A stretch of DNA of 23,129 nt from a virus. Position 1 is the first letter of the stretch, and every line of letters starts with the position of its first letter. A model generated the notes under the pieces. That model saw only the letters and a list, made by a program, of their open reading frames with translations, was not told where the DNA came from and made no database searches. The stretch covers positions 1 through 23,129 of IMG/VR virus record IMGVR_UViG_3300045997_000151; one strand, 5' to 3'. Shown one piece after another: positions 6,307 through 7,873 of this stretch. The position numbers and the translations under genes are program-made.

Positions 6307-6528
6307 CTAGTGGTAAGCAGTGTACGTCAGGCGATACTCAACAGTCGCCGCCATCCAGTCATGCATGCGAATCGAACGGATCGGCGATGTAGCATCGATG
6401 CTCATCTGATTGCGCACAGCTACACGCTCAGCTGCGCTATATACGCGCGCTAACAATTCTTCCTCAGACCGACCAATCACTTGTGAGTCCTGGAATGTAT
6501 GCCGGTACTCGAACTCGGTCTGCGACAT
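6307..6528 (-). CDS. Small protein of unknown function
   Basis: A 73-residue protein (MSQTEFEYRHTFQDSQVIG...). It has a predicted amphipathic helix in the middle (SEEELLARVYSAAERVAVRNQ) flanked by likely strands (FEYRHTFQDS and MAATVEYRLTYTAYH). I do not recognise a family. Its ATG overlaps the stop of the metalloprotease lipoprotein (TGATG), a strong sign that the two are translated as one unit. The frame is open further upstream, but that part lies across the protease gene in another frame and looks non-coding. Confidence 0.6.
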   Translation of the reverse strand: MSQTEFEYRHTFQDSQVIGRSEEELLARVYSAAERVAVRNQMSIDATSPIRSIRMHDWMAATVEYRLTYTAYH

Positions 6529-7478
6529 CACCTGTACGCCTTGATGAGTGCACGCATGTTCTCGGGAGAGGGTGTAATGATAGGAGCTTTGTCCGGACCG
6601 CCCATGATGCTGTGTGGCGCGTAAGTGTGTTCCATTCCGAGCACGTGGCCCAGCTCGTGCATGATGACCGACGTGCGCCACTTGAACGGTTCTCGAGCGA
6701 CGGCACCGTTCGAGTTGTGGCAGATGATTTCCGTCGCAAACAAGAGCTTACCCGCGTAAGTCACTCCAGTTGTTGCGACAGCTCCGTGCCCGTCTGCCTC
6801 AGTATCGGTAATCGTGGTGCACGTAGTCTGCACTTGCGGACAAGAAGTCACCATCTTGAATCGGATCGGGATGTGATTGATCGTCAAATAGCGATTCCAG
6901 ATGGTAACCGCAGTCGAGACCGGCCAGTTCGTCTTCACGATGGTGTGGTCAGCGATCATGAGAACGCGAACAACAGGCGCTGTACGCGCGTACCCGTTAA
7001 CGATGGTGTACGCAGGAGCCTGAGTAGCTGCACCGAACGTTTTCGGTTTCGTCTCACATGCAATGCCATCACCGTCGCGATCCAGTGCTGAACGATAACC
7101 CGATTCACCACGATGCAGCGGTGCAGCACCAGCTGCCCACGCGTCCGCGCACGATGCGTACCGCACGCTCGTAGGTTTCTTCGCAACTGGCTTCTTCGCA
7201 ACTGGTTTCGGTTTCACAGTTGGTTTCACAGTTGGTTTCACAGCGGGTTTTGCAGTTGTAGGAGCTGCAGGCACTTTTGCAGAATGCATAAGCCCCACTG
7301 GTGGTGGAGCAGTTGTCGGTTCTGGAATGTTGTGATCGCTGATAGGGGTAGACGTCGGGTCGGACACGCTCGACGACGACGACGACGACGACGACGACGA
7401 CACACTGCCGTCACTGTTGCACGCGCTCAATGCACCGATCAGTACGATCGCGCCGATTGCCGGCAAGTAGCGCTTCAT
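6528..7478 (-). CDS. Secreted lipoprotein with Excalibur domain and matrixin-like zinc metalloprotease
   Basis: A 316-residue exported protein. Residues 1-20 are a lipoprotein signal peptide with lipobox LSAC (Cys20). A Ser-rich tract (about 27-38) and a Pro/Lys-rich linker with KPTV and AKKPV repeats (about 75-103) follow, as in wall-spanning stalks. Residues 110-142 are an Excalibur calcium-binding domain with DRDGDG and the Cys110/Cys141 pair. The C-terminal domain has the zincin motif HELGHVLGMEH (His274, Glu275, His278, His284) and a likely Met-turn at SIMGG (Met292), as in matrixin-like proteases. It should sit on the outer face of the host membrane or wall and cut proteins. The start at 7478 overlaps the upstream lipoprotein stop (ATGA). 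Substrate and role are unknown. Confidence 0.85.
   Translation of the reverse strand: MKRYLPAIGAIVLIGALSACNSDGSVSSSSSSSSSSSVSDPTSTPISDHNIPEPTTAPPPVGLMHSAKVPAAPTTAKPAVKPTVKPTVKPKPVAKKPVAKKPTSVRYASCADAWAAGAAPLHRGESGYRSALDRDGDGIACETKPKTFGAATQAPAYTIVNGYARTAPVVRVLMIADHTIVKTNWPVSTAVTIWNRYLTINHIPIRFKMVTSCPQVQTTCTTITDTEADGHGAVATTGVTYAGKLLFATEIICHNSNGAVAREPFKWRTSVIMHELGHVLGMEHTYAPHSIMGGPDKAPIITPSPENMRALIKAYR
7371..7400. repeat. (CGA)10 trinucleotide repeat coding for poly-Ser
   Basis: Ten uninterrupted CGA units on the given strand read TCG on the coding strand and encode the poly-Ser tract after the lipobox of the metalloprotease. Length changes would keep the frame and only alter the linker. Serine elsewhere uses mixed codons, so the single-codon run suggests expansion by replication slippage. 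Confidence 0.85.
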
Positions 7479-7873
7479 TTCGAAAGAACCCAGACCTGGC
7501 AACCGTTCGTCTCGAAGATCTCGCCCTTCTTGATGGTCACAACGCCGGGGCCACCCAGGTTGTCATTCGAGATGATCGAATCGAACTCGCCAGAGTCATT
7601 CTTCTTTCGTGCCCAGTAGCAGTTCTTGAACACGTCGTTCTCGTCAGGACCCGCAGTTTTGTACTTCCCCGCAGGCATATCCACGCCAACCTCGTACGTA
7701 CCGGTTCCGTACGTCTTCGCCTTCGACGTGGTCTTGGCAGAGGGGACAGATGCTGACGCGCCCGCGCCCGCAGACGGCGTGCTATTGCTGCTAACCGCAG
7801 CGCCGCACCCGTCGAGTGCACTCACCAGCACGAGCACACCGATCGTCTTCAACATTCTTGACTTCGTAATCAT
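7475..7873 (-). CDS. Small secreted lipoprotein with a C-terminal beta domain
   Basis: A 132-residue protein with signal peptide (MITKSRMLKTIGVLVLVSAL) and a lipobox-like LDGC (Cys23). A Ser/Ala/Thr-rich linker follows, then a domain at about 55-132 with GTYEVGVDMPAGKYKT, NCYWARKK, IISNDN, PGVVTIKKGEIFETNGC. This arrangement, with a conserved YxVGxDMPAGxY start and two cysteines, is one I know from secreted proteins of Actinomycetota; its function is not known. The start at 7873 has GGAGAGACG just before the ATG. The stop overlaps the start of the metalloprotease lipoprotein, so both are likely made together and may act together at the cell surface, for example in superinfection exclusion. 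That role is inference. Confidence 0.75.
   Translation of the reverse strand: MITKSRMLKTIGVLVLVSALDGCGAAVSSNSTPSAGAGASASVPSAKTTSKAKTYGTGTYEVGVDMPAGKYKTAGPDENDVFKNCYWARKKNDSGEFDSIISNDNLGGPGVVTIKKGEIFETNGCQVWVLSK

Follow-up and report, generated by a model that had tools for sequence, protein, structure and literature searches.

What could a phage gain from a predicted zinc protease on a lipid anchor, encoded beside a second exported protein between its terminase genes? The question is raised by an IMG/VR virus record of 23,129 bases (the whole stretch of DNA analysed here, referred to as the window), in which head and packaging genes are clustered on the minus strand at the left, namely those for a scaffold-like protein (by position), a head-morphogenesis protein, portal, and terminases, and the right part holds replication and nucleotide genes (thymidylate synthase, dCMP deaminase, Pol I-like polymerase, helicase, exonuclease, Sak4-like protein, and SSB). 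No integrase was detected among the classed ORFs of the window.

Relatives of the terminase large subunit (TerL) at E <= 1e-60 comprise 152 phage records, all from seven actinobacterial host genera (Mycobacterium, Gordonia, Microbacterium, Arthrobacter, Micrococcus, Nocardia, and Curtobacterium), and the portal relatives (152 records) come from the same genera. Since all these relatives belong to phages of actinobacterial genera, the host of the virus is most likely an actinobacterium. The closest cultured match by both TerL and polymerase is Micrococcus phage Kurnik, and the nearest cultured TerL relatives include phages generally regarded as lytic.

A variable slot between the terminase genes

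The genes of the region are listed below from the small to the large terminase gene.

7961-8449, minus strand: terminase small subunit (terS; phrog_10899, E 8.4e-20), left edge of the slot
7475-7873, minus strand: exported partner, 132 aa, with a Shine-Dalgarno-like GGAGAG and a non-standard lipobox LDGC (ORF and motif scan)
6528-7478, minus strand: lipoprotein, 316 aa, with signal peptide, linker, Excalibur, and metzincin-like domain (open reading frame, profile matches, and motif scan)
6307-6528, minus strand: next gene, 73 aa, no family (searched with one extra leading residue); its start overlaps the protease stop (TGATG)
6099-6302, minus strand: small gene, 67 aa, no family (ORF; domain and PHROG profile searches)
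5717-5992, minus strand: small gene whose homologues in relatives immediately precede terL (homology to relatives), right edge of the slot
4249-5883, minus strand: terminase large subunit (terL; phrog_2, E 6.3e-41), of which 4252-5715 is homologous to relatives

A first-pass annotation made from the sequence had placed two lipoprotein genes with a four-base overlap between the small and large terminase genes, and this arrangement holds: both ORFs are open at these positions, the stop of the partner and the start of the protease share ATGA, and the flanking genes match PHROG terminases (E 8e-20 and E 6e-41). Because of the ATGA and TGATG junctions, translation of the cluster is probably coupled. 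No strong promoter or terminator was found inside the cluster, where totals are close to those of shuffled sequences; on the cluster strand, a single weak promoter-like match (9 of 12) and a single terminator-like match both lie near 7941-7970. Codon composition of the pair resembles that of the phage's own genes, and the pair is therefore probably not a very recent import. A possible 57-aa Zn-ribbon ORF (CxxC...CxxC; 7791-7964, minus strand) begins at the terS stop and overlaps the signal-peptide region of the partner gene in another frame.

Comparison of 89 TerL loci (including the window's own and some near-duplicates) showed how this interval varies. The terS gene was recognised on the same strand in 57 of them, and the distance between terS and terL, taken between ORF ends, ranges from an overlap to 3.56 kb, plus one doubtful case of 9.4 kb. 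Reading 32 intervals of 0.4-5 kb for content, with ORFs called mechanically, revealed a 61-aa lipoprotein in the closest relative (L002, 68% TerL), secreted-type products in L060 and L067, and membrane proteins in L027, L052, L053, L056, and L062, those of L052, L053, and L056 being alike. Thus, the terS-terL interval is a hypervariable cargo slot in related phages, bounded by terS and by the 5717-5992 gene, because relatives share the latter next to terL.

Domain architecture of the two proteins

Several segments can be distinguished in the protease and its partner, all on the minus strand.

7161-7418, minus strand: protease linker or stalk, residues 21-106, Ser-rich then Pro/Lys-rich (sequence)
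7053-7160, minus strand: Excalibur Ca-binding domain, residues 107-142 (PF05901; PDB 5j8t)
6531-7031, minus strand: metzincin-like catalytic domain, about residues 150-316 (PF00413 and PF12388, both barely above cut-off)
6627-6659, minus strand: zinc-binding motif HELGHVLGMEH, residues 274-284, with Glu275 (motif scan)
6603-6611, minus strand: Met-turn candidate SIM, residues 290-292 (motif scan)
7487-7708, minus strand: Rv1352/Rv1906c domain of the partner, NCBIfam NF053833 (profile match and AlphaFold2 model)

The proposal of two lipoproteins is firmly supported for only one of them. The lipobox of the protease (LSAC, Cys20) satisfies both the PROSITE PS51257 and the G+LPPv2 patterns, whereas that of the partner (ALDGC, with Asp at -2) matches neither; the N-terminus of the partner is of the export type, and its lipidation is uncertain. 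In the protease, the anchor is followed by a linker carrying three short tandem repeats (7177-7209, 15 bp; 7210-7258, 12 bp; 7371-7401, 3 bp). The window has six tandem-repeat rows in all, and since half of them lie here, the linker may readily gain or lose length. Elsewhere in the window, a perfect 8-bp tandem repeat (GAGACGAA, 5.2 copies, 11206-11247) directly precedes the likely ATG of an ORF that ends at 11747. Because this repeat overlaps the ribosome-binding region and the length of its unit is not divisible by three, changes in the number of copies could tune expression or switch it. A perfect (AGA)16.7 run at 21001-21050 lies just upstream of an ORF at 21065.

The Excalibur assignment of the first-pass annotation is well founded (PF05901, E 1.2e-16, 61 bits against a cut-off of 22; CbpL Excalibur, PDB 5j8t, E 2.2e-10), and the signature of two Cys plus DxDxDGxxCE is present as Cys110, Cys141, and DRDGDGIACE. 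Considering that the CbpL Excalibur folds only with Ca2+ (PMC5137146, available part), the protease may perhaps be fully folded only outside the cell.

For the catalytic domain, the zinc motif begins at residue 274 and the catalytic Glu is residue 275, as the annotation had it; the corresponding DNA pattern has one match in the window and none in 100 shuffles. Metzincins are defined by HExxHxxGxxH plus a Met-turn (PMC8235301, available part), and both occur in the predicted protease, Met292 being eight residues past the last His of the zinc motif. Profile scores lie close to their cut-offs (Matrixin PF00413, 24.8 bits against 24; Peptidase_M57 PF12388, 21.6 bits against 21), and 29 of 30 sub-threshold PDB sequence matches, classed from protein names, are zinc proteases of the metzincin kind. 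Membership of Peptidase M10 (matrixins) was considered and set aside: the cut-off is passed, yet the match covers only the motif region (residues 270-292). We thus regard the protein as metzincin-like by sequence, with no family assigned. A single-sequence AlphaFold2 model of the catalytic domain was unusable (pLDDT 30). The cysteine-switch propeptide of vertebrate matrixins (PRCGxPD) is absent from the protease sequence; bacterial matrixins are not known to have one.

The partner contains a low-complexity linker and an Rv1352/Rv1906c domain that the first-pass annotation had missed (NF053833, E 4e-24, 84.7 bits against a curated cut-off of 25). Its AlphaFold2 model, built from a 72-sequence alignment, is all-beta with a mean pLDDT of 94.9. 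Against the PDB nothing was found at E <= 0.001; the top VIA-align Z was 5.3 (all below 6), within the range given by common arrangements, and TIMP was not among the listed matches to this model. Among viral proteins, the closest fold is that of a Mycobacterium phage Aggie lipoprotein (E 1e-4, TM 0.73).

Distribution of the protease, Excalibur, and Rv1906c domains

We tried to find relatives of the protease by several routes. In viral contigs, neither protein search nor the exact HELGHVLGMEH pattern revealed a relative; annotated phages (E <= 10) and plasmids gave only motif-length or unrelated matches, and the pattern of zinc motif plus Met-turn had no match in genome contigs. A profile from two Acinetobacter matrixins detected, among the matches listed, one viral record (L100) and one genome. 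The former, a 125-kb phage contig, encodes at 5479-6501 a secreted reprolysin-like protease (PF13688, E 3.8e-10), which by its sequence appears to be an independent phage-borne exported metzincin. Acinetobacter phage MD-2021a (CAKLQH020000026.1) was rejected as a phage precedent, since the stretch in which its two Matrixin genes stand beside dnaK and mltB resembles a bacterial chromosome. The suggested search for the same gene pair at this locus in related phages gave a negative answer: among 98 loci (mostly TerL relatives, with limited flanks), the zincin motif was confined to the window, and of the other loci Gordonia phage Finkle alone had an Excalibur domain. In the latter (L015, 3260-4587), gp27, a secreted GmrSD_C/HNH-type nuclease ending in Excalibur, overlaps gp28, a membrane-anchored Excalibur protein, by four bases; HTH genes adjoin, and both products are annotated merely as membrane proteins.

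No viral relative combining Excalibur with a zincin was found, and the description of the protein as uncommon is justified at the level of architecture, with a zincin motif in 0 of 71 scanned Excalibur-bearing viral loci. In all 70 Excalibur proteins from 69 of these 71 loci (L242 and L250 gave none), Excalibur is the last domain. The architecture of the window's protease is unusual because its Excalibur is internal, with the zincin after it.

A profile scan detected the Rv1906c domain in 73 viral contigs. With our own profile 71 of them were recovered: 24 carry a lipobox, 44 a different hydrophobic segment for export or anchoring, and 3 neither; a segment of one kind or the other is thus present in 68 of 71. 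An integrase lies within 3 kb of the Rv1906c gene in 11 of 27 records (3.9 expected under uniform placement), and in 9 of 25 (3.5 expected, p 0.003) when two records are dropped, namely one of two related phages and one with the gene outside the integrase; under a stricter end-flip null that keeps the distance from the record end, p rises to 0.07. Proximity to amidase lysins within 3 kb was seen in 1 of 11 cases (1.46 expected; 50 viral records searched), and there is no excess near TerL over chance (8 of 21 within 7 kb, 6.6 expected). In eight viral Rv1906c loci a terL of the window's type follows on the same strand, some 4-5.5 kb downstream; four of them (L150, L151, L152, and L154) are apparently one species, which reduces the eight to about five lineages. 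In Mycobacterium phage Farewell (L016, 2719-3219; Sparky is alike), an unannotated antisense ORF of 166 aa with a membrane anchor and an Rv1906c domain sits between the immunity repressor and the integrase, opposite two short annotated genes.

Excalibur occurs in 2 of 50 searched Rv1906c records (of 73) and is adjacent in one. The record IMGVR_UViG_2906896969 (L171, a provirus or virus record), the sole contig common to the Rv1906c list (73) and the Excalibur list (71), encodes an exported Rv1906c protein (5719-6366) and then a stalked Excalibur lipoprotein (6601-7083) on one strand. Gene order there is SSB-like and RusA-like (both assigned by reading the sequence), Phage_VG64-family lipoprotein, Rv1906c, Excalibur lipoprotein with a Pro/Ala linker, terS-like HTH, and terL. 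The order of the pair and its position beside terS-terL are as in the window; however, a catalytic domain is missing, the pair lies upstream of terS, and the TerL is unmatched by phrog_2 and belongs to another lineage. On the Rhodococcus opacus plasmid pRho-G13, an Excalibur lipoprotein and an Rv1906c protein are encoded about 0.6 kb apart on opposite strands. This recurrence is a hint of a functional Rv1906c and Excalibur pair, not a proof.

Possible functions of the pair

The pair probably reshapes the cell surface during infection. As the leading explanation we tentatively propose, along the lines of the first-pass annotation, a two-gene surface module active in the exclusion of related phages (superinfection exclusion), which we hold to be possible rather than probable. 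The module would be accessory cargo in the actinophage terS-terL slot, probably sharing transcripts with the packaging genes. Its two products would be exported jointly, with the zincin lipoprotein on the outer face of the membrane, its flexible stalk reaching into or through the wall and its Excalibur folded by Ca2+ outside the cell. The protease might then cleave at least one protein exposed on the host surface, and perhaps the Rv1906c-domain partner as well, and the infected cell and post-lysis debris would no longer adsorb or admit related phages. A surface protease that excludes superinfecting phages by cutting a receptor agrees with the predicted anatomy; in its favour count the lipobox, linker, and domains, the export and anchor signals, the overlapping junctions, the cluster's lack of a strong internal promoter or terminator, the phage-like codon composition, the lean of Rv1906c genes towards integrases, the Farewell ORF between repressor and integrase, and the fold likeness of the partner to the Aggie lipoprotein. 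Against it count the weakening of that lean to p 0.07, the lack of an integrase among the classed ORFs of the window, and the action of the best-studied metzincin pair of a phage on lysis rather than exclusion. Among the matches listed in PMC full text, no case was found of a phage using proteolysis for exclusion, and neither protein matches PADLOC-DB at E <= 1. A more specific version, which we consider unlikely, is a receptor-destroying enzyme: an anchored, stalked, Ca2+-dependent metzincin, targeted by the co-exported Rv1906c partner, would shave the phage's own protein receptor late in infection, block superinfection, and free progeny from debris, functionally resembling influenza virus neuraminidase.

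The pair might instead aid lysis in the manner of Listeria Mtz-Tim, the metzincin cutting its partner or wall-active proteins so that a released fragment weakens the wall and aids virion release; we rate this as rather unlikely, but it deserves serious weight. The composition is that of Mtz-Tim (a phage-borne metzincin with an adjacent exported or lipoprotein partner), and the low-complexity linker of the partner could be cut. In Listeria, according to the available part of PMC8235301, cells co-expressing the pair became more sensitive to holin-lysin, and virion release rose about 5-fold; the effects on lysis needed protease activity and were linked to partner cleavage. However, the gene order is reversed, the anchors differ (the protease being a clear lipoprotein here), TIMP likeness of the partner is unsupported, and Rv1906c genes are not found near amidase lysins (1 of 11). 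The late-type position of the pair fits both exclusion and lysis aid, and exclusion is placed slightly ahead because genes with the partner's domain lean towards integrases and not towards amidase lysins.

Two further readings appear improbable to a similar degree. A host-fitness or conversion moron, whose surface protease would help the infected or lysogenised cell by acting on external proteins (of competitors or predators, or nutrients), is suggested by Rv1906c and Excalibur proteins on actinobacterial plasmids such as pRho-G13 and by secreted nucleases that carry Excalibur, Finkle gp27 (GmrSD_C plus Excalibur) being an example, but the nearest cultured TerL relatives are in part presumably lytic, and lysogenic expression from within the packaging cluster is unlikely. 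Alternatively, host surface domains may have been captured as inert or near-neutral cargo, with a possibly inactive protease. Hypervariability of the slot, the lack of any found relative with a zincin, and profile scores barely above cut-offs agree with this, whereas the intact zinc ligands, Glu, Met-turn, and overlapping junctions, and the phage-like composition, speak against it. A role in the virion is disfavoured, as both proteins carry signal peptides.

Should the host surface be the place where the protease works, proteolysis would serve actinophages in this case for exclusion or for the control of lysis, and the widespread, functionally blank Rv1906c domain would gain a testable role. 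Were the receptor-destroying version true, Rv1906c and Excalibur pairs beside terminase genes would form a wider class of phage surface modules. The terS-terL slot is a simple place for finding more surface-acting phage genes in a large actinophage lineage.

Comparison with known systems

The pneumococcal protein CbpL resembles the protease in bearing Excalibur on a multi-domain surface protein, there with an Ltp-type exclusion domain; it differs in having no protease, an N-terminal Excalibur, and a choline-binding module that holds it (PMC5137146, available part). Lipoprotein exclusion has precedents in T5 Llp (PMC9586334, in part) and Ltp (PMC3952083, in part). T5 Llp and TP-J34 Ltp are, like the proteins studied here, small phage proteins that are exported and anchored to the infected cell surface, but they act by binding, Llp to FhuA (PMC9586334, in part) and Ltp to the tape measure protein (PMC11480721, in part), whereas a protease implies a different mechanism. 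The T5 Llp class is said also to prevent adsorption to lysed fragments (PMC9586334, in part). Ltp_Lipoprotein repeats (PF07553) gave no match at E <= 1 in either protein.

Among the matches listed in PMC full text, outside which subscription papers largely lie, the only close case is the Listeria pair Mtz-Tim, a phage-associated metzincin plus a lipoprotein, in which cells become sensitised to phage lysis only when the protease is active and its partner is present (PMC8235301, available part). By annotation, no mtz-tim was found in the examined parts of Listeria phages A500 and PSA. Compared by description, Mtz is secreted without a lipid anchor, whereas the window's protease is anchored and has a linker and Excalibur; Tim is TIMP-like by Phyre2 and encoded downstream of mtz, whereas the partner here comes first and has an Rv1906c domain; and mtz-tim is placed after holin-lysin, whereas the window's pair lies between terS and terL. 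The two systems have in common that a phage carries, side by side, one gene for an exported metzincin (HExxHxxGxxH plus Met-turn) and one for an exported partner (with a lipobox in Listeria), and that the products act at the surface, which for the window's pair is predicted; an exported metzincin-like protein beside an exported partner, encoded on a phage, is the arrangement found in the window.
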